From Acinetobacter lanii (GTDB taxonomy: Bacteria > Pseudomonadota > Gammaproteobacteria > Pseudomonadales > Moraxellaceae), in NCBI RefSeq assembly GCF_011578285.1, contig NZ_CP049916.1, forward strand, positions 1,736,001-1,800,000: 64,000 bases of DNA, in the 5' to 3' direction. Each line of letters starts with the position of its first letter. Within the stretch, counting starts at the first letter, position 1. Of this stretch, positions 9,907 through 30,400 are shown one piece after another. A program made the translations under genes and the position numbers. The notes below the pieces were generated by a model. That model did no database searches. It was given only the letters and a program-made list of their open reading frames with translations, and was not told the origin of the DNA.

Positions 9907-10680
9907 TTATCGTCCTTGATAATTCGGTTTACGTTTTTCAATAAAGGCTTGCATACCTTCCTTTTGATCTTGTGAAGAAAATAGCATCTGGAATGACTTA
10001 CGCTCTAAAGCTAGCCCTGCATTCAGGGGGACATCTTCAGCCAATAGTGCGACTTCTTTAATTTGTTCTAACGCAATCGGCGGAAGCTTGGCTAAGCCTT
10101 CAGCCATTTTGATCGCTGTTACTAGGGTTTCAGCATCTTCAGTTACTTGTGACACTAGACCGATTTGATAGGCTTCAGGTGCAGGCACTAGACACCCTGT
10201 CATAATGATACGCATGGCGTGAAATTTACCCACTGCACGGAATAAACGTTGGGTTCCACCAGCACCTGGCATCACACCAACTTTCACTTCAGGCTGTCCA
10301 AACTGCGCACTTTTTCCTGCAATAATAATGTCGGCATGCATGGCCAACTCACAACCACCACCGAGCGCATAGCCATTGACTGCTGCAATCACCGGTTTTG
10401 AACATTGTGCTATCGCTTGCCAGTAACGTTCTGTACGACGTTGCATCATTTGAATAGATTCGGCTGTCGCCAATTCTTTGAGGTCAGCCCCTGCTGCAAA
10501 ATCAGTTTCACCGCCCGTCAAAATAATGGCACGCACCTCAACATCATCATTGAGTTCTAAGAATGCAGCTGCAAGTTTTTGGCGTACTTCTGTATTTAAG
10601 GCATTTTTAGCCTCTGGACGGTGAATTTTAACCATCGCCACATGAGGCGAAATACGCTCGACCTGAACAACCTGCTCCAT
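9907..10680 (-). CDS. paaF: Enoyl-CoA hydratase (PaaF-like crotonase)
   Basis: The 257-residue crotonase adds water to a 2,3-enoyl-CoA. It shows the oxyanion-hole segments DFAAGADLKELA and ALGGGCELAMHAD, with the two catalytic acids expected in QPEVKVGVMPGAGGTQRL. The start at 10680 is preferred over 10692 because GGAG lies six bases before it, inside the longer ORF. It heads an operon with the dehydrogenase and thiolase. It is the only crotonase hydratase in the window and so the best local candidate for the missing BadK step of the cyclohexanecarboxylate cluster at 51.6-56.1 kb. Confidence 0.87.
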   Translation of the reverse strand: MEQVVQVERISPHVAMVKIHRPEAKNALNTEVRQKLAAAFLELNDDVEVRAIILTGGETDFAAGADLKELATAESIQMMQRRTERYWQAIAQCSKPVIAAVNGYALGGGCELAMHADIIIAGKSAQFGQPEVKVGVMPGAGGTQRLFRAVGKFHAMRIIMTGCLVPAPEAYQIGLVSQVTEDAETLVTAIKMAEGLAKLPPIALEQIKEVALLAEDVPLNAGLALERKSFQMLFSSQDQKEGMQAFIEKRKPNYQGR

Positions 10681-14302: not shown

Positions 14303-16495
14303 TTATAAAACTTTATAAGTCACTCCTGCATAGACACCAAATCCATCCCCGGGCGTGAGTCTTGCCGCATCTCGACCTTGATCGTTAAAACCTGGGGTCA
14401 CGGTTGACGCATATTTTTTATTGGCAATATTTCTAAAATCTAACCACGCCGAATAAGGTTGCTGGGCTTGCTGATAACCGAACGTTGCTCCCCAAATTTG
14501 GTAATGATCTGCATAATGCGTGTTGGCATAATCTATGGCTATTTTTGATGCATATTCGGTATTCAGCGCAGCATAAAATCCTTGCGGATGCTGGAACTGT
14601 AATTGTGCTTGATAGAAATGTTTTGGAATCCCTGCAAGCTCATTTTTATTAAAAATCGGATCATGTTTGTAGTGAAAATCACTCAAGGTATAACTTTGTT
14701 TTAATGAAACTTCACCATAATGATCATGACGCCATAATGATGAGTTTAGCCCAATTTCAAGCCCTTGATGAATCGTATCTGAGGCATTCGACTCAGCGAT
14801 CACTTGATTGGGTACAGGCTGTAACTCTACTGCCAATAATTCATTTTGCACTTGGGAATAATAGTACGCAATATCCCAATCCCCTAACCATGATTGACCT
14901 CGTCCACCGAGTTCAAGCGTATGCGCAGATTGTGTATCAATATGAATTGGTTCACGTTGTCGTCCGATGGACGCTTCATGACCTGCATTATTACCTTCAT
15001 TAAATTTCTGATCTGAACTCCAAATCATTGACCAAGGATGTGGCGCTTCTACGCTTCGGCTGATATTGGCAAACCATTGAGTCTGTGGCGTCATTTGATA
15101 GCGTAGACCGAGACTCGGTGCCCAATTCCATTCACTTAATTCTACTTTTTGGCTTTGCACTGGCCATGTGACTTGGCTTTGCCTTTGCATATAGGCAAGG
15201 TTGATACCACTTACCAGCCAAAATTCTGGGTTTAATTCAAACTCATGGTTAAAACTCAAGACATTGTCAGAACCTGTATGTTCAAAATGACGTGTTTCAG
15301 TACCTGCTTGAATATTATTTTGATTAACCCGATAACGTTCAATGATCTGTTGATCGCTTGGAATATCAGTGGTACTGCGCAGTCCGATCTTGAAACGATG
15401 TTCATGTCCTAACCAAGTTGCTTGTTTTTGGTAATTCATAAACGCCGTAATATCGTCATAATCGACCTGAGTACTGTATATGCCTTCTTGCAGATCCATC
15501 GGAAAATGATGGTAGGCCAAACCAAAGTCGAGTGTTCCCTGCTCATGTAAATTAATTTGTGTTTTATTGGCAAGCCACACACTGCCGGGTTGTGGTCGGT
15601 TGCTGTTATACAGCACATTATTGGGATTGGCTTGTTTAGGATCATCACTCAGTTGTGCTTTAGTGATTCTTCCCGGAGTTTGATGTTCTGTTTCCCGATA
15701 ACGTAAATAACTACGGTTTAAAATATCCGGTGTGATTTGATAACCCACATTGGCGGCAATGCCTTTGGCCGAACTTGAAGAATGCTGTTGGAAACCATCG
15801 CTGTCGGCATGGGATAGCGATACAAAATAATCTAAATCGCCAATGTGTTGTCCTGAGCTGATGTGGCTGCGTTGATAACCAAAACTGCCCCGCTCATGGT
15901 GGATGGCAAGCTTGGCTGCATCTTGCCCTGTTGGTGTGGCAAAGTTAATAGCCCCACCTAAAGTTAAAGCGCCAACACGGTTACCATTGGCCCCCCGATA
16001 GACTTCGGCATGATCGACCCATGCAGCATCGAGCAATTCATAAGGTGTGCCACTTGGGCTGGTAAATGGAATGCCATCGAGTAAAACATAGGTACCTGAA
16101 CCATGTGCGCCTGAACCTCGATTGATGCCCGAACCCCGGATTGAAAGTTTTACACCTTCATTGCCTGCGGATTTTGCATAGACCCCGGGTTGATAACCCA
16201 ATACATCTTCATTGCTATTGAGTTTACGCTGACGTAACAGCTCTGCATCGATAAAATTGGTCGCGCCATTCACTTGTTGAAGTTGTTGTTTGGCGAGGGT
16301 TTTATTTTTTTGATCTGTAGCAGATTGGCTAAGCTGAATGACGGGTAATGTCGTCACTGTAGATTCAGTTTGCGACTCCGTATTTAACTGAATATTGTTC
16401 AGCTCAACAGCATGCACAGATGAGGAAAGAATCAGCCATAGACTGCTGAATAGAACAGTCGGTGGTGTTGCAACTTTTAGTATGAATGGCCTCAT
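14303..16495 (-). CDS. TonB-dependent outer-membrane receptor
   Basis: The 730-residue protein has a signal peptide ending near SSVHA, a plug domain with ATNFIDAELL and SIRGSGINRGSG, a VYRGANGNRVGALTLGGAINF segment, and a 22-strand barrel that ends at the C-terminus (GVYAGVTYKVL). It imports a scarce ligand across the outer membrane with TonB energy. It is divergent from the NitT/TauT-type ABC permease, as is common for receptors paired with such transporters, so it may serve the guanidine locus. No Fur box was clear, and the ligand is not deducible. Confidence 0.85.
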   Translation of the reverse strand: MRPFILKVATPPTVLFSSLWLILSSSVHAVELNNIQLNTESQTESTVTTLPVIQLSQSATDQKNKTLAKQQLQQVNGATNFIDAELLRQRKLNSNEDVLGYQPGVYAKSAGNEGVKLSIRGSGINRGSGAHGSGTYVLLDGIPFTSPSGTPYELLDAAWVDHAEVYRGANGNRVGALTLGGAINFATPTGQDAAKLAIHHERGSFGYQRSHISSGQHIGDLDYFVSLSHADSDGFQQHSSSSAKGIAANVGYQITPDILNRSYLRYRETEHQTPGRITKAQLSDDPKQANPNNVLYNSNRPQPGSVWLANKTQINLHEQGTLDFGLAYHHFPMDLQEGIYSTQVDYDDITAFMNYQKQATWLGHEHRFKIGLRSTTDIPSDQQIIERYRVNQNNIQAGTETRHFEHTGSDNVLSFNHEFELNPEFWLVSGINLAYMQRQSQVTWPVQSQKVELSEWNWAPSLGLRYQMTPQTQWFANISRSVEAPHPWSMIWSSDQKFNEGNNAGHEASIGRQREPIHIDTQSAHTLELGGRGQSWLGDWDIAYYYSQVQNELLAVELQPVPNQVIAESNASDTIHQGLEIGLNSSLWRHDHYGEVSLKQSYTLSDFHYKHDPIFNKNELAGIPKHFYQAQLQFQHPQGFYAALNTEYASKIAIDYANTHYADHYQIWGATFGYQQAQQPYSAWLDFRNIANKKYASTVTPGFNDQGRDAARLTPGDGFGVYAGVTYKVL

Positions 16496-16838
16496 AACAT
16501 TCCTTTGTCTTGTCTCTATGTTTTGTTTCTATGGTTTGTCGTTATTGCGCAGATTATTTAGGCTAATCAAAAGCGATAAAATGGCGTTTTATCCGCATCA
16601 TGTTAAAAAATAATTTAAATAGCAAGCGGCTTTTATGCGCAAAAATAATGCGTTTTTAGATCATGATTCGATCTTTGGCGCTATTTCAAAATTTAGCCTT
16701 GATTGTCTGCGAACAGGCACAGTTATTTTTTTTCAATTTTCAAAAAATATTTAAATGAGTGCTAGAAAGAGTCGATTGATTGAGACGTGGCGAATCGCCT
16801 GATGCGTTTTAGAGTGCGAATTTGATTTAAAGTCTATT

Positions 16839-16854
16839 TGGCATTCATTTTGCT
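16839..16854 (+). promoter_or_regulatory. Sigma-54 promoter of the ABC transporter operon
   Basis: TGGCATTCATTTTGCT has the invariant GG and GC dinucleotides 12 bases apart, as in TGGCAC-N5-TTGCA. It lies about 42 bases before the permease start. Confidence 0.75.
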
Positions 16855-16859
16855 TAAAA

Positions 16860-16887
16860 GTATTACGTTTTATAAAAATAGTAATAT
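16860..16887. promoter_or_regulatory. NikR-geometry half-site pair at the transporter promoter
   Basis: GTATTA-N16-TAATAT (palindrome with one mismatch) begins five bases after the -12 element and covers the expected transcription start. E. coli NikR binds GTATGA-N16-TCATAC. The same spacing recurs at 22627 and 30373. Confidence 0.5.
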
Positions 16888-16895
16888 TAGGCAGA

Positions 16896-17846
16896 TTGCT
16901 TATGAGTTATATCGCACGAGAACTCACGCCCAGAACCAAAATTCTGTTTGGCTTCGGCTCCTTTTTGATTCCTATTTTACTGTGGTGCGCCGTGAGTTAT
17001 TTGCCTTTTATTTGGCATCCACAAGTCCAAATCACTGACTCAGGCAGTGTGCCTTTTTTACAAGAAGGCAGCCGTGTAGACAAACAAGTCTTTTATAGCG
17101 AAGCGCAAACTGCGGTTAATCAAGGCGCCGCACCACCACAAGGAAAATTGGTCAATCCGATTTATTTGCCTGCACCGCATGAAGTGGCCAAAGCTTTAGT
17201 GACCGCCTTTAATACAGCACCTCAACAGGAAGGCGCACCGTGGTTCCATGAAAGCCTCTGGCACAGTATCAAATTGGTGTTTAGTGCTTTTATCTTGTCT
17301 TCAATTATCGGTGTTCCTTTAGGGATTTTGTGCGGTTTTTCCAACAAGCTTTCGCAATTGACTGAACCTTTTGTTGAATTTTTCCGTTATCTGCCTGCAC
17401 CTGCTTTTGGGGCACTTGCCGTTGCCATTTTAGGGATCAATGATGCGCCAAAAATTGCCATTATTGTGATTGGAACCTTATTTCAACAAATTCTGATTAT
17501 TGCCAATACCACACGCTTGGTTGATAAGAGCCTGATTGAAGCCGGTTTTACCCTCGGAACCAACAAACTCAAAAGCTTATTTCATGTGGTGATCCCTGCC
17601 GCACTACCAGAAATTTACCGTGATTTGCGTGTGCTACTGGGTTGGGCGTGGACCTATTTAATTGTGGCTGAACTGATCGGCAGTACTTCTGGAATCACGT
17701 GGTTCATTACCCAACAAGCGCGTTACCAAAATTTTGACAATGTCTTTGCTGCGATTCTGATTATTGGTGTCATTGGACTGGTCTGCGATGTAGTGCTGAT
17801 GAAACTCGGACAACGTCTATTTAAATGGAAATTGGGAGCAAAATAA
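16896..17846 (+). CDS. NitT/TauT-type ABC transporter permease (guanidine locus)
   Basis: The 316-residue inner-membrane permease has a first helix, then an unusually long periplasmic loop (about residues 45-115, containing SGSVPFLQEGSRVDKQ), and the BPD_transp_1 helices with the EAA-type loop IEAGFTLGTNKLKSLFHVVIPAALPE. The nitrate/sulfonate/taurine family also serves urea- and guanidine-carboxylase loci. It overlaps the ATPase gene by one base (TAATG). The promoter is sigma-54 type. Guanidine or a guanidine derivative as substrate is inferred from context. Confidence 0.85.
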   Translation: MLMSYIARELTPRTKILFGFGSFLIPILLWCAVSYLPFIWHPQVQITDSGSVPFLQEGSRVDKQVFYSEAQTAVNQGAAPPQGKLVNPIYLPAPHEVAKALVTAFNTAPQQEGAPWFHESLWHSIKLVFSAFILSSIIGVPLGILCGFSNKLSQLTEPFVEFFRYLPAPAFGALAVAILGINDAPKIAIIVIGTLFQQILIIANTTRLVDKSLIEAGFTLGTNKLKSLFHVVIPAALPEIYRDLRVLLGWAWTYLIVAELIGSTSGITWFITQQARYQNFDNVFAAILIIGVIGLVCDVVLMKLGQRLFKWKLGAK

Positions 17847-18769
17847 TGAATCAAACATCACACCCTCAAGCTGAACCGACTCATGCACGTGTACAACCCG
17901 ATTTCAACGCCCGTGAATATTTCGATCGGATTTACCAACGCCCTGTGATTTTGGAAGCCAAAAAACTCACGCAAACCTTCAAACATGGCAAAACGCAACG
18001 CACCATCTTAAATGCACTCGATTTGAAAATTCATAAACGTGAATTTATTTGTGTGATTGGCCCCTCAGGGTGTGGCAAATCGACTTTTAGCCGTGTGGTG
18101 GCTGGCTTAGACCCTTATACCGAGGGTGAAATTTTGGTGGATGGTCAGCCAATTCTAGGCCCAAGTCCTGAACGTGGCATGGTGTTTCAAGGCTATACCT
18201 TATTTCCATGGAAAACCGTAAAAGAAAATGTCATGTTTGGCCCACAAATGAAAGGTCAAAGCCATGCCAGTGCTGAAGCCCATGCGCGAGAGTGGATTAA
18301 TATTATTGGTCTAGAGAAATATGAAAATCAGTACCCACACCAGCTTTCAGGCGGGATGAAGCAACGGGTTGCGATTGCACGCGCCTTGGTCAATGAGCCT
18401 AAAATTTTACTCATGGATGAACCTTTTGGTGCACTCGATCCCCATACCCGTCAAAAAATGCAGCGCCACTTGATGGATCTTTGGCAGAACATTGATATCA
18501 CCATTATTTTTGTCACACATGATATGGATGAGGCAATTTTATTGGCTGATCGTATCGTTGCGTTAAAAGCCAATCCAGGTGAGATCAAAGAAATTATCGA
18601 AGTGGATTTACCACGTCCACGTTCGCCTGATGTGATACTCACGCCTGAGTTTAAAGCTTTAAGACAACGTGTTGATCAACTGGTGCATGCTCAAGAGGAT
18701 GAACTCGACCCAGCATTGGCTGATTTACCGAGCATTCCACGAATGACGCAAGTCAGTCATCGCAAATGA
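17846..18769 (+). CDS. NitT/TauT-type ABC transporter ATP-binding protein
   Basis: The 307-residue ATPase has Walker [11 protein letters not shown]-loop [10 protein letters not shown], signature LSGGMKQRV, Walker [13 protein letters not shown] and the switch histidine in FVTHDMDEA. It energises the permease encoded just upstream. The ATG at 17846 overlaps the permease stop; a start at 17825 would add seven residues without a better ribosome binding site. The C-terminal extension of about 60 residues after the switch is longer than in SsuB/TauB. Confidence 0.88.
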
Positions 18770-18779
18770 GAGAGCAGCT

Positions 18780-19109
18780 ATGTCGTATTTGTATTTACTC
18801 ATTGCGGTGATTGCTGAAGTAATTGCCACGTCTGCCTTGAATGCATCCAAAGGCTTTACTCAAGTTGCCCCCACAGTCATAACCTGCATGGGTTATTTGA
18901 TTGCCATATATTTTCTATCCCTCACCATGAAAAGTATTCCAATGGGCATCACATATGCATTGTGGTCAGGTGCAGGTATTGTCTTTATCTCCACCATTGG
19001 TTGGGTGGTGTTTAAACAGCATCTTGATGCCGCCGCGATGATTGGATTGGCTTTTATCTTGTTCGGCATTGTGATTATCAATGTCTTTTCCAAGAGTACC
19101 CATGTTTAA
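18780..19109 (+). CDS. EmrE/Qac-type small multidrug resistance transporter
   Basis: The 109-residue protein has four membrane helices. The essential glutamate is Glu13 in VIAEVIATSALNAS, and the second-half motif IPMGITYALWSGAGIVFIS matches EmrE, with the tryptophan used by the polyaromatic-cation subgroup. SMR proteins of guanidine loci are usually of the Gdx guanidinium-exporter subgroup, but this one reads as Qac/EmrE type. It is 10 bases after the ABC ATPase and so in the same sigma-54 operon. It may export a substituted guanidinium or amine side product. Confidence 0.85.
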   Translation: MSYLYLLIAVIAEVIATSALNASKGFTQVAPTVITCMGYLIAIYFLSLTMKSIPMGITYALWSGAGIVFISTIGWVVFKQHLDAAAMIGLAFILFGIVIINVFSKSTHV

Positions 19110-19212: not shown

Positions 19213-20235
19213 TTATTTAATGTCTTGCACTAAACTTGGATAAATCAATCCATCGGCATTTTGTTCAGTGGTATACACACCATTGATGACATTGAATTTA
19301 TTGACATGATAAGTTGAACCATAAATCGACTCAAAACCATCAGCTTTAGTGAATATTTTTTTGTTGTCAGCTAAATTCAGTAAATGTGTCCCTTCAATAA
19401 ATTGTTCATAGGCTTTTGGATCGACACCGACTTTATTGGCCATGATCTTTACTGCTTCATCATGGGTCGCAGGATCATTGATAAACTTCACCGTTTTGTC
19501 CCAGACTTGAATGATTTTTTTCCATTCTTCTTTATGTGCTGACAAATGGCTCATGTTGACGGTCAAAGTGTCATAAATCAGCCCGGGTTTGTCTTTTGAG
19601 CTATAAATGATTTTTGACCCTGCGACGGCCTTTAATGCTTGATTTGCCACAGGTTGCCATACTGCAATTGCTGATACATCAGGTGTATTAAACACTTGAG
19701 GTAATTCATTGGTCATCGAATTAATCAAGGTATATTGGTTGGGTTGAATTTTGGCATCGCTCATTGCAGTCGATAGTAATAAGTGATCGACCAAACCTTT
19801 TTCGACCGCAATTTTCTTGCCTTTTAACTCTTGAATATTGTTGATGCCATTTTTGGCAATAATCACATCATTGCCCGCAGAATAATCAGTCACCATAATC
19901 ATGGCACCTTGGGTTCCACCTGAGGCAATCACCAAATTATCCCCATTGGTCACGGACAAAGCATCAAGTTGATTGGCTGCAAATGCATTAATGGAAGCTG
20001 AGTAATCAAACCACTTAAATTCAACATTGACGCCTGCTTCTTTAAAAAAGCCTTTTTCAATCGCCACTTGCCAAGCGACCCAACCTGGCCAATCACTATA
20101 ACCAATCGTAATCGGTTTGGTATTCATACTCCCTGTTTCGTTTTTGGTTGGTTCAGGAATTTTGGCGGTATTGTCACACGCCGTAATGAAGAGGCTTAAA
20201 CAGGTCGAGAGTGCTAAAACGGATTTTTTGATCAT
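19213..20235 (-). CDS. NitT/TauT-type ABC substrate-binding lipoprotein
   Basis: The 340-residue periplasmic binding protein has a lipoprotein signal MIKKSVLALSTCLSLFITAC (lipobox ITAC). Its start at 20235 overlaps the allophanate hydrolase stop by ATGA. TIGYSDWPGWVAWQVAIEKG and AGVNVEFKWFDYSASINAF match the NMT1/TauA-like fold. It should deliver ligand to the permease and ATPase at 16896-18769, which lie in the convergent operon. The WPGW motif is typical of the urea-carboxylase-associated branch. Confidence 0.87.
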   Translation of the reverse strand: MIKKSVLALSTCLSLFITACDNTAKIPEPTKNETGSMNTKPITIGYSDWPGWVAWQVAIEKGFFKEAGVNVEFKWFDYSASINAFAANQLDALSVTNGDNLVIASGGTQGAMIMVTDYSAGNDVIIAKNGINNIQELKGKKIAVEKGLVDHLLLSTAMSDAKIQPNQYTLINSMTNELPQVFNTPDVSAIAVWQPVANQALKAVAGSKIIYSSKDKPGLIYDTLTVNMSHLSAHKEEWKKIIQVWDKTVKFINDPATHDEAVKIMANKVGVDPKAYEQFIEGTHLLNLADNKKIFTKADGFESIYGSTYHVNKFNVINGVYTTEQNADGLIYPSLVQDIK

Positions 20236-22040
20236 GGTGCAATTTCCCCTATGCCATTGCATTCAAATTTTGTATTACTCAGTTGTTTGGATTGAATATA
20301 GTCACGCCATCCGCCAAAGTGACTAATATCGGTGGCCTCGGCTAAAGCATATCCTTCACAAATGAAGCCTTTAACCCATGAGCCATCACTTAGCTCTACA
20401 TTACCAATACCAAGGGGTGCAGGTACTTCCGCGACGATTTGACCAAATGTTGCCAATGGAATATCCCAAACCTCGACTTCAATAGCACGACCTTGAGGAT
20501 TGAGTTGTAAGCCCGGTTTCGGTGGCTGGGTGTTTTTCAGTGCATATAAGCTGTAATGTGCTGCAGTCTTGGTTTTTTGCAGCAATGTCCCACCGCGTGT
20601 CGTTAATTGGAAATTCAAGGGCATTCCCGTCAAATGTGCACCGACCACCGCCAACTTGACACTATGGGCTGAACTGATCTGTGTTGAAGGTTGATACGTC
20701 TGCGAAGATGTTCCCAAATTTAAGCCCGTCGCGTGTTGCCATTTTTGTGCAAAATTCGCTAAGGCCTGATCCATCCATGCAGACGCTATAAAGGTCACGC
20801 CACTCGGTAAACCATCACCACGAATGGTGTTTGGCAGTGCGAATGCAGATAAATCAGCAAAATTAACAAAGTTGGTATAGGCACCCATATGGCTATTTTT
20901 TAGCAGAGGATCGGCTTTGACCTCTTCAATTTTATAAATGGTAGGTGCGGTGGGTACCATTAATGCATCATACGATGCTAAAGCAAGGTTAATTTTTCGT
21001 GCTAAATCTGCACGTTCATATTCGGCAGCCATACTGACGACTGCGTTAAATTGATCCGCTTGTGAAATGATTTGATGAATCACCGGATGAGTGACTTCTC
21101 TTTTCACCCGTTGTTCTACCGCATAGGTACGCTCTGCCACCCACGCTTTATTGTATAAGGCTGAAGCCAATTGGTTGAATACTGTAAAATCGATGGATTC
21201 AACTGTATAACCAAGTTGTTTCACCCGTTCGACTGCAAGTTGAAATGCCTGTTCAGATTCAGCGTCGCCGTAGAATTCAAGCTGGGCAGGAATTGCGATT
21301 TTTTGCTTAGAAAATTGTGTAGGTACGTTGCTCGGATGCTGACGTGAGTATTCATCTTTTTCATCATAACCTTGCATGATTTGTGCGACTTGCCATGCAT
21401 CATCCGTGGTCAATGCAAAAATAGACACCACATCTAAAGTACGACATGCAGGAATCACTCCATAGGTTGAAAACCAGCCTTTGGTCGGTTTTAAGCCCAC
21501 AATATTATTATGTCCTGCCGGTACACGACCTGAACCCGCCGTATCTGTGCCCAGTGAGAATGGAACCATTCCTTTTGCCACCACGACCGATGAACCTGAG
21601 CTTGAACCACCACTGATATACTCTGGGTTAAAGCTATTTTTGACAGCGCCATAAGGTGAACGTGTTCCGACTAACCCTGTGGCAAATTGATCGAGATTGG
21701 TTTTTCCCACCACGATTGCACCCGCTCCTTTGAGTTTTGCAACCACGGTGGCATCCTGAGTTGCCAAATATTCAGCTTCTTTACAGGCTGCCGTGGTATA
21801 GAACCCTGCAACATCAATATTGTCTTTGACTGCAAAAGGAACACCGTAAAGCGGAAGCTCATCTGCATTTTTGTTTTTTAACGACTCAATTTGAGCAGAA
21901 AGCTGTTGTTTTGATGAGATAGAGATCCATGCATGGTCATCATTTTGAATAGAAGCCACATAATTAAATAAATCATCCAATTGAATCTGTTGATGTCGAT
22001 ATGCATTTTTCCAATCGTGTATGGTCCATAAGGTCGTCAT
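20232..22040 (-). CDS. atzF: Allophanate hydrolase
   Basis: The 602-residue enzyme hydrolyses allophanate to two ammonia and two CO2. The N-terminal amidase-signature domain has the lysine in PFAVKDNIDVAG and the Ser-cisSer region GGSSSGSSVVVAKG (about residue 146), with LGTDTAGSGRVPAG. The C-terminal domain (about 455-602) is the allophanate-hydrolase-specific part. It overlaps the NikR-like gene by ATGA and the binding-protein gene by ATGA, so three genes are translationally coupled. In guanidine use it is the last step after the carboxylase and the DUF1989 deiminase. Confidence 0.9.
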   Translation of the reverse strand: MTTLWTIHDWKNAYRHQQIQLDDLFNYVASIQNDDHAWISISSKQQLSAQIESLKNKNADELPLYGVPFAVKDNIDVAGFYTTAACKEAEYLATQDATVVAKLKGAGAIVVGKTNLDQFATGLVGTRSPYGAVKNSFNPEYISGGSSSGSSVVVAKGMVPFSLGTDTAGSGRVPAGHNNIVGLKPTKGWFSTYGVIPACRTLDVVSIFALTTDDAWQVAQIMQGYDEKDEYSRQHPSNVPTQFSKQKIAIPAQLEFYGDAESEQAFQLAVERVKQLGYTVESIDFTVFNQLASALYNKAWVAERTYAVEQRVKREVTHPVIHQIISQADQFNAVVSMAAEYERADLARKINLALASYDALMVPTAPTIYKIEEVKADPLLKNSHMGAYTNFVNFADLSAFALPNTIRGDGLPSGVTFIASAWMDQALANFAQKWQHATGLNLGTSSQTYQPSTQISSAHSVKLAVVGAHLTGMPLNFQLTTRGGTLLQKTKTAAHYSLYALKNTQPPKPGLQLNPQGRAIEVEVWDIPLATFGQIVAEVPAPLGIGNVELSDGSWVKGFICEGYALAEATDISHFGGWRDYIQSKQLSNTKFECNGIGEIAP

Positions 22041-22492
22041 GATTGTTCTCCTTGTTCAATTTGATTTTGTGCAATAGGTGGCATCACAGCATCCATCAGT
22101 TCTAAGTGAACTTTGATCACCCCTTTTAGCGCAGTGAATTTTTGACTAATCATTTTCAAATCAATACTTTTGCCCTGAAGCAGCATCACTTCTAGAATTT
22201 TTTGATCATCGAGTTGAATATGCAGTGAGCTGACCACTTGAGCGATATATTGTTGTTGTAATTCAAAAAGTTGCTGTCTTAATGTTTTAGAGCTTAGGTC
22301 ATATAAGAGTGTCAGTGTTCCGACCATGACTTCATTGCGTTTGGCTTGATCATCGATTAAATGTTTATTGATCATGTCGACGATGGCTTGCGAGCGACTT
22401 TCATAGTGTTGCTCGACGATTTTTTCATCCAAAGCGTTGAGTGTGGTTTCAGGCACAGTGATGCTAATGCGTGCCAATTTGGTTTTAGGCAC
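22037..22492 (-). CDS. NikR-like ribbon-helix-helix regulator lacking the nickel site
   Basis: The 151-residue protein has a ribbon-helix-helix DNA-binding domain (about residues 6-45, ARISITVPETTLNALDEKI) and an ACT-like ligand domain ending near residue 135. Aligned to NikR, the four square-planar nickel ligands (His76, His87, His89, Cys95 in E. coli) correspond to Gln80, His91, Gln93 and Ile99, so only one remains. The start is GTG with AAGGAT upstream, overlapping the 42-codon ORF before it. It is first of the coupled nikR-like/atzF/binding-protein set. I infer a regulator of the guanidine genes with another effector or none. Confidence 0.8.
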   Translation of the reverse strand: MPKTKLARISITVPETTLNALDEKIVEQHYESRSQAIVDMINKHLIDDQAKRNEVMVGTLTLLYDLSSKTLRQQLFELQQQYIAQVVSSLHIQLDDQKILEVMLLQGKSIDLKMISQKFTALKGVIKVHLELMDAVMPPIAQNQIEQGEQS

Positions 22493-22613
22493 GTTTTTTA
22501 TCCTTATATGTGTGAGTTTGTGCTAAGTGAAATCCGGCACGTGACGTCAAAATTTCGATCAGAAAAATGATCAAAGGATGTTTTCTATGGGGAGTTTTTG
22601 CAGGTGTGGTCAT
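22485..22613 (-). CDS. Possible 42-residue leader ORF before the NikR-like gene
   Basis: An ORF with a strong AGGAG about seven bases before its ATG starts MTTPAKTPHRKHPLIIFLIE and ends KDKKRA; its stop overlaps the GTG start of the regulator gene. It lies wholly in the 5' part of the sigma-54 transcript. Overlap and ribosome binding site argue that it is translated and couples to the regulator. It could be a leader peptide, a small basic protein or a fortuitous ORF. No homology is claimed. Confidence 0.45.
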   Translation of the reverse strand: MTTPAKTPHRKHPLIIFLIEILTSRAGFHLAQTHTYKDKKRA

Positions 22614-22626
22614 GTGCATCTCCTAA

Positions 22627-22654
22627 ATAATACTTTTTATAAATTTCGTATTAC
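22627..22654. promoter_or_regulatory. NikR-geometry half-site pair at the nikR-like promoter
   Basis: ATAATA-N16-TATTAC lies just after the -12 element at the expected transcription start. Its half-sites are 21 bases apart start to start, as at 16860 and 30373. Autoregulation is the simple inference. Confidence 0.45.
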
Positions 22655-22662
22655 TAAAGAAA

Positions 22663-22678
22663 TGCAGTATCTGTGCCA
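22663..22678 (-). promoter_or_regulatory. Sigma-54 promoter of the nikR-like/atzF operon
   Basis: Minus-strand TGGCACAGATACTGCA has GG and GC 12 bases apart with the full TGGCAC box. An NtrC-type palindrome lies about 80 bases upstream. Confidence 0.8.
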
Positions 22679-22750
22679 ATAATTTTTATTGTTTAAATAT
22701 CATGGTTTTTTAGATAGTGTAGCTAACTCAATCGCCTATAAAACAGCAAA

Positions 22751-23273: not shown

Positions 23274-25136
23274 ATGAAATTAATAGCAATTAAGTTAGAA
23301 AATTTTAGGGGTTATCAGGGTATAAATCTGATAAATATTGATTCTAACTTAACAGGAATTATTGGTAAAAATGATGCTGGTAAATCCACAATTTTAGAAG
23401 CTTTAGACGTTTTCTTTGAGAACTCATCTTTGGATAAGAATGATAAATGTGTAAGCTGTGCCGAAGAGGATAATGTTTCAATAACATGTATTTTTGATGA
23501 CAATCCAACCTCTTTAATACTTGATGCTACATCTGTAACTACTTTACAAAATGAGTATTTATTAAATTCAGAAGGTTACTTAGAAATTAAAAAAACTTTT
23601 CGAATAAATCAGAAGGTATCAACTGACTTATGCCTGATTGCCAACTATCCAAATAATATTGGCTTAGATAATTTGATCATTTTGAAAAATGCAGAATTAA
23701 AAGCATTGATTAAGGCAAAAAATTTAGATATATCTCAAGTTCAAGACCAAAGATCTAATACATCGTTAAGACAATATTTATTCAAATCGGAAACTCTTAC
23801 TTTTCATTCCAAAGAAATTCCATTAAATAAAGAAGATGCTAAAAATGTTTGGGATGCTTTAAAGAACTTCTTACCTATTTATGCATTATTTAAATCAGAC
23901 CGCAATAGTAGCGATCAAGATAGTGAAGTCCAAGATCCAATGAAACTGGCAATTAGACACGCACTATCTGAAATTCAACCACAATTACAAGCCGTACAGG
24001 AACATATCAAAACAAAAGTTGAAGATGTAGCTGGAAGAACTTTAGAAAAATTATCAGAAATGGATTCAGCTCTAGCAAAAGATTTGATTCCGGATTTTTC
24101 AAAAGAACCTAAATGGGAGTCAATTTTTTCAATGGCTTTAGCCTCTGAACAAGGTATTCCTGTCAATAAAAGAGGAAGTGGTGTAAGAAGATTAATTCTT
24201 CTAAACTTTTTTAGAGCAGAAGCAGAGAAAAAATTTCGAGAAGCAGATGGTCGTTCAATTATTTATGCAATTGAAGAACCTGAAACTTCACAACATCCAG
24301 ATTATCAGGAGATGTTGATAAAAGCTCTTTTAGATTTATCCATATTACCAAAAACTCAAATATTAGTAACCACTCATACCCCAGCCTTAGCAGGGCTAAT
24401 GCCTATATCCAGTTTAAGATACATAACTAAAGATGAAACAAATCAACATGTAATTGCCCACGCTGATTGCAACGACATTTTAAAATCAATTAGTGAAGAT
24501 TTAGGTATACATCCTTTCGGTAATATTTCTAATCCTCAATGTCGAGGATATATCTTCGTTGAGGGTGTTTCTGATGTTGTATTTTTAAAACATATATTTT
24601 CTAAATATGCTGAAAAAGGATTGATTCATAAAGATTACATTGCTGAATTGGATATACAGCTTCTTATTAGTGGTGGAAGTGATAACTTAAAACATTGGGT
24701 AAACTATAAACTTATAGAATCATTACAAAAACCTTGGGCAGTTTTTTTTGATTCTGACAACGATGGAAATGACTGTCAAAAATATCAACAAAACTTGGCT
24801 AGTCAGTCCAAATATTCCAACATAATTTTTCATTTAACTGCAAAAAGAGAGTGTGAGAATTATCTACATCCTAATGTCATCCTCAGAGTATCTAATAACA
24901 GACTTAGCTATACCCCTGACAATTTTTCCGATCAAAAAGTGATTTTAACTCCTCTTTTATCCGATTTTATCGCTATTAAAAAAAGTAATTTAATTGAAAA
25001 ATTATGGGGAAATAGTACATGCGAGGAAATTATAGAAAGTTGCACAGATCAACAAGGAAATAATGAATTCCTTCAATTTATCAAGAGAATTGAGGGAAAG
25101 TTTGGTTTAACTGAACCAGAAAAAAAGACCGCCTAA
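23274..25136 (+). CDS. OLD-family ATPase-TOPRIM nuclease
   Basis: The 620-residue protein has an ABC/SMC-like ATPase domain with Walker A GKNDAGKST (residues 31-39), signature-like NKRGSGVRRLILL and Walker B IYAIEEPETSQHP. A TOPRIM nuclease domain follows, with the metal-binding glutamate in YIFVEGVSD and aspartates in AVFFDSDNDGND. OLD-type nucleases act in phage defence. No UvrD-like GajB partner or reverse transcriptase is adjacent, so it fits the stand-alone class. Its codon use is much more AT-rich than its neighbours, which suggests horizontal transfer into the guanidine locus. Its stop codon lies in the loop of the terminator hairpin. Confidence 0.88.
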   Translation: MKLIAIKLENFRGYQGINLINIDSNLTGIIGKNDAGKSTILEALDVFFENSSLDKNDKCVSCAEEDNVSITCIFDDNPTSLILDATSVTTLQNEYLLNSEGYLEIKKTFRINQKVSTDLCLIANYPNNIGLDNLIILKNAELKALIKAKNLDISQVQDQRSNTSLRQYLFKSETLTFHSKEIPLNKEDAKNVWDALKNFLPIYALFKSDRNSSDQDSEVQDPMKLAIRHALSEIQPQLQAVQEHIKTKVEDVAGRTLEKLSEMDSALAKDLIPDFSKEPKWESIFSMALASEQGIPVNKRGSGVRRLILLNFFRAEAEKKFREADGRSIIYAIEEPETSQHPDYQEMLIKALLDLSILPKTQILVTTHTPALAGLMPISSLRYITKDETNQHVIAHADCNDILKSISEDLGIHPFGNISNPQCRGYIFVEGVSDVVFLKHIFSKYAEKGLIHKDYIAELDIQLLISGGSDNLKHWVNYKLIESLQKPWAVFFDSDNDGNDCQKYQQNLASQSKYSNIIFHLTAKRECENYLHPNVILRVSNNRLSYTPDNFSDQKVILTPLLSDFIAIKKSNLIEKLWGNSTCEEIIESCTDQQGNNEFLQFIKRIEGKFGLTEPEKKTA

Positions 25137-25159: not shown

Positions 25160-28100
25160 TCAAGCCACTGGTGCTAACGTAAACAACACTTGCCCCGTTT
25201 TCACCGTTTGCCCTTTTTCAATGGTAATAGCTTCAACTTTCATACGCTCAGGTGCAATAATTGGAATCTCAATCTTCATTGCTTCAATCACTGCAAGCGT
25301 TGCACCTTCTTCCACAATATCCCCGGACTGGCATTCAATTTTCCAAATTGAACCCGGCATATGCGACTCAACCGCACAACCGCCATTCGGAATTTCAACA
25401 CCTGCGCCGTCATCCATAGCATCTAAACTTTCAGACACATATTCTGCAAGACCTGCTTCATGCCAGCGACGACGTTCTGCATCAAAGTTGGCTTGTTGTA
25501 CAGACTTAAAGGCTGAAATGGATTCCTCATTTTCAATTAAGAAGTCGTTGTACTCTTTTAAGTTCAATATGCCTTCTTCAATACGAAGTTTTAAGCGACC
25601 TGCTTTAAAGTCCTCACGCATCTGCATCAGTTCAGTTTCAGAGACTTCATAGAATTTAATTTGGTCAAAGAAGCGCAGTAACCACGGTTTACCTTGCTCA
25701 AAGTCGGCATTTTTACGGTAGCGTGACCACATTTGCGTGGTACGACCAACAAACTGATAACCGCCCGGACCTTCCATACCATAGACACACATATAAGCAC
25801 CGCCAATACCCACGGCATTTTCAGGGGTCCAAGTTCGTGCAGGGTTATATTTGGTGGTGACTAAACGCTGACGTGGATCAAGTGGAGTCGCGACAGGCGC
25901 ACCGAGGTACACATCGCCTAAGCCCATGACCAAATAACTTGCATCATAGACCACATCTTTCACAGCTTGTTTGTCTTTTAAACCATTAATTCGACGGATA
26001 AATTCGATATTGTCCGGACACCATGGTGCATCTGGGCGCACAGTTTGCATATAGCGTTCCGTTGCCAATTGGGTTTGTGAATCTTCCCAAGCGAGTGGTA
26101 AATACACGGTACGAGATGGCACTTGCATCTCGGTCACATCAGGGAGTTCCGCTTCAGCGACTTGTAATAAACGCAATAAATTAATTTGATCAAGTTTGAT
26201 TGAATCAAAATGGATTTGCAGTGAACGGATGCCCGGTGTCAGGTCGATAATGCCCTGAATATTTTGCTTTTGAACCCATTGCATCAAAGCGTGAATACGG
26301 AAACGTAAGTTTAGATCAAGTACTAACTCACCATATTCCACCAACATGTAGTTGTTACCCGCAGGACGATACACCACATCAGGCGCACCATTTTCACCTT
26401 TTAAGGTATCGAGAACCGCATTTTTTAATGTCGAAAGTTCAGGATAGAACGACTCATCAAATACGACAGCTTTTGTATCTGACGCTTCTACTTGTGCATG
26501 ATATTTTTCATTGAGTAGTTTAGCTTGGTGATAGCTCACGGGGATAAATTTCACCTTGTCACCGGCTTTAAGCTGACCGAGTTTCCATAGTTCAGAGTTG
26601 ATCACCACTGCAGGACAAACGAAACCACCGAGACTTGGACCATCGGGACCAAGAATAATTGGCATATCACCGGTGAAATCAATCGCCCCAATGGCATAGG
26701 CATTGTCATGAATATTGGATGGATGCAGACCGGCTTCACCACCATCCTCACGTGCCCATTCAGGTTTTGGACCAATCAAACGAATACCGGTACGGCTTGA
26801 GTTAAAGTGAATTTCAAAGGTATTGTCAAAGAAGGTATCAATGTCATTTTTGGTAAAGAAATCAGGCGCACCATGTGGGCCATACATCACCGCAATTTCC
26901 CATTCATGGCTAAATGACGGCACTTGTTCAGGTGCAAGAGCTTTAATTTCATCGCTTGTAAATGCGGTGATTGGCAGCATATCGCCAATCAGTAAGTTAC
27001 GCCCTGCATGACCACCAAACTGACCTAAGGTAAAAGTTGATTGTGAACCTAGATATTCAGGCACATTCAAACCACCTTTGATGCCGATATAGGTACGGCA
27101 ACCTGTGGCGATTTTGCCACATTTTAACACCTGACCTTTACGCACATTGATGGTTTGCCACATCGGTACAGACACACCATCCAATGTTGATGGCATATCA
27201 CCACCAGCAAGCACGATTTGGCTGTCACAATGGAATTTTAACGTTGGACCTTGTAGCGTACATTCAAGCCCTGCGGTGTTATAGGCATTACCCAGCAATT
27301 GGTTTGCAACATTGAGAGATAATGGATCAATCGCACCTGATGGTGGTACCCCGACATCCCAGTAGCCTAAACGACCTGTGACATCTTGCACGGCAGTTTG
27401 AATACCGGCTTGCAGGACTTCAATCTTTTGGGTTTTCCATTCAAAAGTATTTAAGAAACGTGTGGTTTGCGTACCGGCTTTAAAGACTTCACCGTCGATG
27501 ATGTTTTGCAGATATTCAAGATTGGTTTCAATACCGGCTACTGAGGTTTTAGCAAGTGTATCGGTCATCGCTTGAATGGCAGAGGCACGATCATCTGCTG
27601 TGACAATGATTTTCGCAATCATCGGGTCATAGAATGACGATACATTCGAGCCCGTTTCCACCCATGTTTCATTTCGGGCATTAGGATCAAACTCAACATA
27701 TGTCAGTAAGCCAGCACTGGGTTGGAAGTTTTTAATTGGATCTTCAGCATATAAACGTACTTGAATCGAATGACCTTTTGATTCTAATGGTTCAGTTGGC
27801 GCAGTCCAATCACCGCTAGCCAAGGTGACCATCCATTCCACCAAGTCCACACCAAAGACTTGCTCGGTCACGCCATGTTCCACTTGTAGACGAGTATTCA
27901 CTTCCAAGAAATAGAATTCTTGTGTGTCGGTATCCATCACAAATTCAACCGTACCCGCAGAACGGTACTTCACCGACTGCATCAATTGAATTGCGACATT
28001 TTGGATATAGGCACGCTGTTCGTCATTGATATGCGGTGCCGGTGTTTCCTCAATCACTTTTTGGTTACGACGTTGTACCGAGCAATCACGCTCACGGAGT

Positions 28101-28765
28101 GCAATGACATTGCCTTGACCATCGCCAAAAATTTGCACTTCAATATGACGCGCGTTTTGTACAAATTTCTCTAAGTACAACCCTGCATCTTTAAAATTGG
28201 CTTGGGCTAAATAGGATACGGTTGCATACGCATCTTTTAGTTCTGCTTCATTCCACACCAAGCGCATACCGATTCCGCCACCGCCGGCTGTACTTTTCAG
28301 CATTACTGGGTAACCGATACGCATCGCTTCTGTGAGTGCTTCTGCTTCATCCTTCAATAACTGACTACCTGGCAGTAAAGGTACATTGGCTTGAATGGCA
28401 AGTTCACGCGCCGTGTGCTTTAAACCAAAAGCACGCATTTGTGCAGAGTTTGGACCAATAAAAGCAATACCTTGTGACTCACATAAGTCACAGAATTCAG
28501 CATTTTCAGACAAGAATCCATAACCCGGATGAATCGCTTGTGCGCCGGTTTGTTTGGCCACCTCTAAAATTTTATCGATATTTAAATAGCTTTGACTCGC
28601 TGGTGCTTCACCGATATAGACCGCTTCATCCGCTAAAGTCACATGGAGTGAATCACGATCGGCTTCTGAGTACACTGCAACGGATTGGATGCCGAGTTTT
28701 TTCAAGGTACGAATGACACGACACGCAATTGCTCCACGGTTGGCGATTAATACTTTATTAAACAT
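25160..28765 (-). CDS. Biotin-dependent guanidine/urea carboxylase
   Basis: The 1201-residue enzyme combines a biotin carboxylase domain (about 1-450, with [18 protein letters not shown] and [13 protein letters not shown]), a carboxyltransferase of two KipA/KipI-like halves (about 480-1060) and a biotinyl domain with the biotin lysine in IEAMKIEI (Lys1164). It is of the urea carboxylase family. The guanidine-I riboswitch upstream, two DUF1989 partners and a separate allophanate hydrolase mark the guanidine carboxylase branch, which makes carboxyguanidine. The start at 28765 has GAGGA upstream; the longer GTG start at 28786 lies inside the preceding gene. Confidence 0.88.
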
Positions 28766-28766
28766 G

Positions 28767-29432
28767 TTATGCGTCCTCGCCTTCACGGATGATCAATTGA
28801 ATTTTGGTTGGGTTATAGGCATTACAAGGATTATTCAGTTGTGGGCAATTGGAGATCAACACGATCAAATCCATTTCTGCTTTGATTTCCACATATTTAC
28901 CCGGTGCAGAAATACCATCATCAAACTTTAGATGACCCTCAGAGGTCACAGGCACATTCATAAAGAAGTTAATATTTGGACCGATGTGACGCACATTTAG
29001 ACCATGTTTTTTGGCAATTGGATGCTGAGACAGCGCAATCATGAAATTGTTACGGCAACTGTGCATTGGATATTTGTCATGTGCATAGCGAACAGTGTTA
29101 CTTTCACATGAACATGCACCACCTAAAGTGTCATGGCGACCGCAGTTATCATCATGGATGGTGGCAATTTTATTGCCAAAGTTGGTGTATAAAGCTGTGC
29201 CTTTTTCTAAATAGATTTGTTGATTGATTGCCAATGTATCGGTTGCGCTATAACGCTCTTCAGGGTTTGACGCCGAGATAAAGAGCGTATCCACCGCTTG
29301 GTTGCCTTCTAAATCCACAATACGAAAATATTGCCCTTTTTTGACTTCGCACATCCATGCTTCACCGGCAGGACAAACTTCGTTTAATACTGTTTTTTTA
29401 TGATTTTGTGTTGGGTTTACAAGTGCAGTCAT
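28767..29432 (-). CDS. DUF1989 protein, carboxyguanidine deiminase subunit-type (UAAP2)
   Basis: The 221-residue DUF1989 protein retains the metal-site-like stretch [20 protein letters not shown] and ends before the carboxylase start. In characterised guanidine loci the two DUF1989 proteins form the deiminase CgaAB that turns carboxyguanidine into allophanate and ammonia. It follows the other DUF1989 gene by 12 bases and precedes the carboxylase by one base. The pairing with a riboswitch makes the guanidine role likely; which of CgaA or CgaB it matches was not determined. Confidence 0.85.
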
Positions 29433-30354: not shown

Positions 30355-30370
30355 TGCAAATGGCATGCCA
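30355..30370 (-). promoter_or_regulatory. Sigma-54 promoter of the riboswitch/carboxylase operon
   Basis: Minus-strand TGGCATGCCATTTGCA has GG and GC 12 bases apart. The predicted start near 30343 falls about 10 bases before the riboswitch core. Confidence 0.75.
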
Positions 30371-30372
30371 AA

Positions 30373-30400
30373 GTATTACGATTTTATTTTTTTATCATAC
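30373..30400. promoter_or_regulatory. NikR-geometry half-site pair at the riboswitch promoter
   Basis: GTATTA-N16-TCATAC is one base different from the E. coli NikR consensus GTATGA-N16-TCATAC. It starts two bases upstream of the -24 box. Confidence 0.5.

Follow-up and report, generated by a model that had tools for sequence, protein, structure and literature searches.

A NikR-like regulator without the nickel site as a candidate guanidine-responsive repressor in Acinetobacter lanii

What does a NikR-like regulator respond to when it is encoded among guanidine genes? The question is raised by a 64,000-nucleotide stretch of Acinetobacter lanii DNA (contig NZ_CP049916.1, positions 1,736,001 to 1,800,000; hereafter the window, whose numbering is used for its features), in which the gene for a putative ribbon-helix-helix regulator of 151 residues with a GTG start (22037..22492, minus strand) lies in a guanidine locus. 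Here, we propose that this protein is a nickel-blind, NikR-derived repressor that would give guanidine-specific induction at the sigma54-type promoters of three units, an arrangement that we regard with moderate confidence as the probable one. Its basis, i.e., the family, the lost nickel site, the operator, the regulon and the distribution, is supported by sequence analysis.

Family membership and the nickel site

The NikR-like identity and length that a sequence-only reading of this DNA had proposed were borne out by profile and structure-database searches. NikR_C (PF08753) matches the regulator over its cut-off (E=2.9e-19; 69.5 bits, gathering threshold 22; Pfam profile search), and ten distinct PDB sequences match it, every one named nickel-responsive regulator, with P. 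horikoshii 2bj1 as the best match (E=1.4e-21; 37% identity, computed across residues 5-125). The PDB NikR alignment spans residues 5-126, and the N-terminus scores 18.9 bits with RHH_1 (cut-off 20.5). The protein falls below the cut-offs of the NCBIfam NikR equivalogs (score/cut-off 96.9/105 for NF003381, 71.5/83 for NF002815 and 67.4/175.45 for TIGR02793). It is the sole NikR_C match in the A. lanii genome, and its nearest named relatives are from Acinetobacter. As 83 of 149 genomes from the same genus have a match, the reading frame is not a chance one. A degenerate or chance copy was thus ruled out, since the orthologues are conserved and only two of the 83 (G018 and G063) are evidently decayed.

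The nickel ligands of E. coli NikR are His76, His87, His89 and Cys95 (PMC7055735, accessible part). At these columns the regulator reads Gln80, His91, Gln93 and Ile99, so that three of the four ligands are lost, exactly as had been read from the sequence. We compared 127 family proteins, left after the removal of identical copies and of sequences that were short or decayed, with 22 NikRs that were separated from the family by score and not by their ligands. The E. coli NikR is among these references. The His-His-His-Cys quartet is present in 0/127 family members versus 22/22 NikRs. Among the family proteins, Cys95 is retained in none, His76 in 15, His89 in 69 and His87 in 121, the last being Ser or Thr in the other six. 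The pattern with which 73 of the 127 rows were fetched fixes Val82, Ser84, Ser85 and His87 and leaves positions 76, 89 and 95 free; of the other 54 rows, for which this pattern was not used, 48 have His87 and all have Ser85. The loss is graded: all 44 same-genus rows lack both His89 and Cys95, seven sphingomonad/Caulobacter rows retain only His87, and most remaining rows retain the HxH formed by His87 and His89. The four columns read QHQI, QHQV, HSQI and similar in the same genus, and xHFS in sphingomonads. Homologues with intact ligands at the same kind of locus, which would have spoken against the earlier reading, were searched for among the 127 proteins and none was found. The loss is therefore well supported in the family as sampled, whose members appear unable to form the NikR nickel site, and nickel sensing via the standard site was ruled out, as the quartet is missing in 127/127.

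Other functional positions have changed or been kept family-wide. The potassium-site residue Glu30 is Gln in 124/127 proteins, position 34 of that site is Asp or Glu in 109/127, and the DNA-contacting Arg3 is present in every one. Gln79 and Gln106 of the window's protein (Gln75 and Gln102 in E. coli numbering) are invariant in 127/127 and unconstrained by the fetch pattern, and Ser89 (Ser85 in that numbering) is invariant in the 127 rows partly by construction of that pattern. In an unrooted tree of 76 thinned family rows and 24 NikRs, a single branch splits the two groups (support 100/99; all 200 bootstrap trees), with a long-branch warning. One family protein (9971-10438 of locus L119) lacks the nickel ligands and passes the NF003381 cut-off of 105 with 115.1, and proteins of this kind may thus be annotated as nickel sensors. 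Members that score as nickel-responsive NikR in curated models would misdirect nickel predictions.

A predicted operator at three promoters

The guanidine locus consists of three units: genes for a permease, an ATPase and a small multidrug resistance (SMR) transporter on the plus strand; a small open reading frame (sORF), the regulator, allophanate hydrolase and a binding protein on the minus strand; and UAAP1, UAAP2 and a carboxylase on the minus strand after a riboswitch. In same-genus loci, the motif GTAWTAC-N14-GTAWTAC was first spotted by eye upstream of the regulator (42 loci) and the permease (34 loci), and was counted afterwards. The best three matches in the window coincide with the three promoters of the locus. 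They lie at the promoter of the regulator's unit (22627..22654, one mismatch), upstream of the permease unit (16860..16887, one mismatch) and, for the carboxylase unit, upstream of its sigma54-like element (30373..30400, two mismatches). Sigma54 promoters carry GG-N10-GC in a -24/-12 element. Matches to this consensus are TTGGCACAGATACTGCA in the regulator's unit (22663..22679, minus strand), TTGGCATTCATTTTGCT ahead of the permease unit (16838..16854, plus strand) and TTGGCATGCCATTTGCA in the carboxylase unit (30355..30371, minus strand).

The association holds throughout the genus. With up to two mismatches, the operator precedes the regulator's unit in 40/42 loci, the other two being decayed (L052 and L053), the permease in 34/34 and UAAP1 in 26/29, with three more at three mismatches. 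The binding-protein gene, internal to its unit in this genus, served as the negative control, with the operator ahead of it in 0/41. GG-N10-GC lies no more than 40 nt 5' of the best operator in 41/42 regulator promoters. Exact operators occur in 78/83 genomes with the gene (143 sites) versus 9/66 without it (9 sites), and the reversed pattern gave 14 and 19 sites, respectively.

A scan of GTDB species genomes yielded 365 relatives, of which the best 80 were used; these include Methylobacterium, Hyphomicrobium, Aquabacterium, Thiobacillus, Methylovorus and others. In the 66 of these 80 loci that have a binding-protein gene with 300 bp of sequence before it, the best operator upstream of that gene is exact in 23, and has one mismatch in 35, two in six, three in one and six in one. 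At two mismatches or fewer, the spacing of 21 accounts for 64/66 loci, and none of the other spacings between 15 and 28 for more than 5/66; 1,320 shuffles gave two matches at two mismatches and none better. A fixed pattern found a sigma54-like element in 39/66. Operators of the sphingomonad/Caulobacter clade were placed in L072, L074, L191 and L193, and the matches in the unannotated L192 lack placement. In four Hyphomicrobium loci the operator is GTATGAC-N14-GTCATAC, equal to the form of the E. coli NikR operator, GTATGA-N16-TCATAC (PMC7055735, accessible part). GTAWTAC-N14-GTAWTAC is thus probably the operator of the regulator. Judged from sequence, a predicted regulon of the three guanidine-locus promoters is well supported, and operator and regulon together strongly support a regulatory role in guanidine metabolism.

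Guanidine genes, distribution and exchange with riboswitches

The guanidine setting that had been read from the sequence was confirmed. A Guanidine-I riboswitch (RF00442; 30218..30341, minus strand; 72.6 bits, gathering threshold 63) precedes genes for UAAP1 (TIGR03425; 29445..30218; NCBIfam search), UAAP2 (TIGR03424, DUF1989; 28767..29432; profile search) and guanidine (urea) carboxylase (25160..28786; NCBIfam search and active-site column), all on the minus strand. We take UAAP1 to be a carboxyguanidine deiminase subunit. Asp703 of the carboxylase aligns with Asn1330 of K. lactis urea amidolyase, presumably the diagnostic Asp/Asn site. An active-site Asp marks guanidine carboxylases and Asn urea carboxylases, and the guanidine carboxylase pathway includes UAAP1 genes (PMC12186494, accessible part). 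With the riboswitch, UAAP1, UAAP2 and carboxylase together, and Asp in the active site, the unit is of the guanidine type.

The 3' end of the regulator gene shares four bases (22037-22040) with the start of the allophanate hydrolase gene (20232..22040, minus strand; NF006043 and TIGR02713 over cut-off). This agrees with the translational coupling noted earlier for this locus, which proved to be local and not family-defining. In the 40 same-genus loci fetched, the binding protein is near the regulator in 39, the carboxylase in 31 and allophanate hydrolase in only 25 (matches covering <30% of the query were dropped and one 25%-identical amidase was left uncounted). Allophanate hydrolase as an obligate partner was thereby ruled out, and the transporter binding protein is the most constant partner in these loci. 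In the window, the latter is an ATP-binding cassette (ABC) transporter substrate-binding protein of the NMT1 type (19213..20262, minus strand; best NCBIfam match TIGR03427, below its cut-off). Profile searches identified the ABC permease (16896..17846), the ABC ATPase (17825..18769) and the SMR transporter (18780..19109), all on the plus strand. Our guess is that this SMR transporter may be a guanidinium exporter; SMR genes under guanidine-I riboswitches are described in the accessible part of PMC12186494.

In the same genus, 85/149 genomes have a guanidine-I riboswitch: 82 have both the riboswitch and the gene and three (G052, G080 and G121) the riboswitch only, with one further genome (the decayed G018) having only the gene. 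In the stretches fetched from the three riboswitch-only genomes, every carboxylase operon is incomplete; G052 and G080 retain an exact operator ahead of the riboswitch unit, and G063, with its decayed regulator, has a weak one there (three mismatches). Across 398 Pseudomonadota genomes, the family was found in nine (E at most 4e-23). The matches that follow are at 1e-13 and weaker, and all 20 proteins extracted from these have the nickel quartet. UAAP1 is over its cut-off in 42/398 genomes, and the regulator occurs in 8/42 of these versus 1/356 others (Fisher 6.7e-8). Among the best 80 of 365 relatives, 52 outside-genus loci have full flanks, with an ABC transporter in 48 and the carboxylase in 37. 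Novosphingobium and Asticcacaulis plasmids unite the transporter, regulator, UAAP1, UAAP2, carboxylase and allophanate hydrolase. The neighbours identified are guanidine uptake and carboxylase genes, and nickel transport or nickel enzyme genes are not among them. A search of viral contigs confirmed no homologues.

Among the 42 Pseudomonadota genomes with UAAP1, the guanidine-I riboswitch occurs in 2/8 with the regulator versus 33/34 without (Fisher 3.6e-5), and a guanidine-I or guanidine-II riboswitch in 3/8 versus 33/34. We tested 50 of the 80 loci, hand-chosen mostly for long flanks, for a guanidine-I riboswitch anywhere in the genome. It was present in 2/23 where regulator and carboxylase form one unit, 0/3 where they are divergent, 12/12 where the carboxylase is in a separate unit and 12/12 with no carboxylase within 10 kb. 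Fourteen of the 50 were scanned with all Rfam families. The 11 with an operator-headed carboxylase unit (L106, L124, L125, L131, L142, L146, L148, L152, L154, L161 and L183) have no guanidine-I riboswitch ahead of UAAP1 (0/11); seven hold guanidine-II somewhere, and L124 holds guanidine-I elsewhere in the locus. In the three separate-unit loci (L133, L149 and L180), guanidine-I lies immediately ahead of UAAP1 in 3/3, and guanidine-II is also present. The regulator thus seems to replace guanidine-I, and not guanidine-II, at the operon head.

The sORF (22485..22613, minus strand; 42 residues, alternative ATG at 22619) lies directly upstream of the regulator gene and overlaps its start. The sORF was looked for in the window's genus, where a core like FLVELLSVRAGLYVKQ lies between operator and regulator in 41/42 loci, at a length of roughly 37-45 residues. 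The ratio of non-synonymous to synonymous differences (pN/pS) is 0.38, with pN<pS in 804/814 pairs (6/820 pairs with <5 differences were dropped), which indicates purifying selection.

Other genes near the regulator vary. Between regulator and carboxylase, the window has an OLD-like ATPase gene with TOPRIM (23274-25136). Across same-genus loci this interval measures 0.3 to about 5 kb (9 kb in one locus) and forms a cargo spot with varying genes, elsewhere including large ATPase-like and unassigned frames and, in L075, a toxin-antitoxin pair; it is possibly a defence-gene site. A 2-oxoglutarate (2OG)-Fe(II) dioxygenase gene occurs in 24/42 same-genus loci and one for a hypothetical protein in 21/42 (e.g., L075, 15664-17552), and the window has neither. 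A TonB-dependent receptor gene (14303-16495) adjoins the guanidine transporter genes in the window, as in Novosphingobium and Sphingobium (L072, L191 and L193), and the receptor may belong to the regulon because L191 and L193 have a second operator in the interval between receptor and binding protein. Outside the genus, creatininase-family and type III glutamine synthetase (GSIII) genes are near the regulator in 49/52 loci, and in L119 (7742-9964) they lie between transporter and regulator. Two family members (L126 and L137) are on contigs labelled Verrucomicrobiota and Acidobacteriota; as these are binned metagenome contigs, they may be misbinned.

The ligand and comparison with known systems

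In the mechanism that we propose, a tetramer of the regulator would span the two palindromic half-sites 21 bp apart in the manner of NikR. It would act at the sigma54-type promoters of three units, namely the one for guanidine uptake, the one that encodes the regulator with allophanate hydrolase and the binding protein, and that of the carboxylase. These promoters would be opened via sigma54 when nitrogen is limiting, and would be kept closed by the repressor as long as no guanidine, or very close derivative of it, has entered the cell and occupied the C-terminal ACT-like domain, at the former nickel place. Repression is suggested by two of the three units, in which the operator lies immediately downstream of -12, and guanidine is the best guess for the ligand because the regulator partly replaces the guanidine-I riboswitch.

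Several observations weigh against this mechanism. The operator is downstream of -12 in two units and upstream of -24 in the third, that of the carboxylase, and position therefore does not point to one sign of regulation throughout. A genome-wide scan found no exact operator in A. lanii, and at one mismatch or fewer it found five operators, two of them at the locus, versus four reversed-pattern sites; with the control almost equally common, single-mismatch operators elsewhere in this genome are not evidence. The riboswitch counts ignore kinship, with five of the eight regulator genomes in the phylum sample coming from two families, and in that sample they cover guanidine-I and guanidine-II. 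In L124, L146 and L160, which were counted as having separate units, an operator lies in the interval that separates UAAP1 from the binding-protein gene. The window's genus carries operator and guanidine-I together on the carboxylase unit, so regulator and riboswitch are not strict alternatives, and a strict either/or was ruled out. Lastly, the C-terminal domain has no invariant acidic residue (position 73 is Asp or Glu in 93% and position 97 in 79%, and otherwise mostly Gln), which fits a guanidinium site poorly and makes a guanidinium ligand less likely.

This last point bears on the ligand. The same operator and regulon could serve another compound: a pathway intermediate (carboxyguanidine or allophanate), methylguanidine, something made by the enzymes of the creatininase/GSIII genes, or a signal of nitrogen status, for example glutamine as a co-repressor. 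Three invariant residues of the C-terminal domain, Gln75, Ser85 and Gln102 in E. coli numbering, are polar but uncharged, ACT-like domains frequently bind amino acids, and outside the genus the creatininase-family/GSIII genes are commoner than the carboxylase (49/52 versus 37/52 loci). However, allophanate is not produced by the operon where the carboxylase is not close, the sigma54-like promoters seem to read nitrogen status already, and the exchange with guanidine riboswitches favours guanidine itself; we therefore consider a different ligand doubtful. Nor does the protein look like a ligand-free threshold repressor relieved by competition with a sigma54 activator, by dilution or by a partner such as the sORF product. 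The sORF is conserved under purifying selection (pN/pS 0.38), yet it has been seen in the window's genus only, with no search made outside it, whereas the C-terminal domain holds family-specific invariant residues across three proteobacterial classes, which makes this account very unlikely. The least probable account is that metal sensing persists through a modified site, which would bind nickel weakly or a different metal, in the members with HxH if not in all. His87 in 121/127 rows (fixed by the fetch pattern in 73), His89 in 69/127 and, in some rows, Cys76 or Met95 could serve as ligands, but members from the window's genus and the sphingomonads have the same operator and locus without HxH or Cys95, and the guanidine carboxylase route is nickel-free.

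The guanidine-responsive repressor thus remains our preferred reading, and we lean, by little, towards the wider claim that it would be the first guanidine-sensing transcription factor, with a metal swapped for an organic ligand, the NikR DNA geometry kept and the place of guanidine-I taken in several lineages. PMC12186494, in its accessible part, lists guanidine-binding transcription factors as yet to be found. On metformin plasmids, one paper places two putative, unnamed transcriptional regulators next to genes of the guanidine type and genes for nickel chaperones. In the open-licence literature searched, we found neither a link of NikR-like or CopG regulators with guanidine genes nor a protein regulator of guanidine operons. 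The family is a concrete candidate for a guanidine-sensing protein, with a predicted operator, a regulon and testable partners. If the proposal is true, the family shows that a metalloregulator can exchange its metal for an organic ligand with little change in its DNA site, and that a protein can trade places with a riboswitch on one pathway.

Three known systems place this regulator in context. The guanidine carboxylase operon of Vreelandella boliviensis includes methylguanidine demethylation (PMC12508155, accessible part), and same-genus loci resemble it in gene content, through their genes for a 2OG dioxygenase and a hypothetical protein. Unlike the loci described here, control in V. boliviensis is attributed to riboswitches, and NikR, CopG and ribbon do not appear in the accessible text of PMC12508155. 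Like the Guanidine-I (ykkC) riboswitch, the regulator is tied to carboxylase genes that carry guanidine-I in other Pseudomonadota, but the riboswitch is an RNA that acts after initiation, whereas the regulator is a protein that would act at the promoter. With NikR (E. coli, P. horikoshii 2bj1; PF08753, NF003381, TIGR02793) it shares its length, an N-terminal ribbon-helix-helix-like stretch, the NikR_C domain, Arg3 and Arg28-Ser29 in the family, and a predicted operator whose two half-sites have the same spacing. Unlike NikR, the family lacks the nickel quartet, has Gln in place of Glu30 and an invariant Gln102 (Arg or Lys in most NikRs), and is marked by a conserved C-terminal Ala-x-x-Pro, guanidine-gene neighbours and a mostly GTAWTAC operator.

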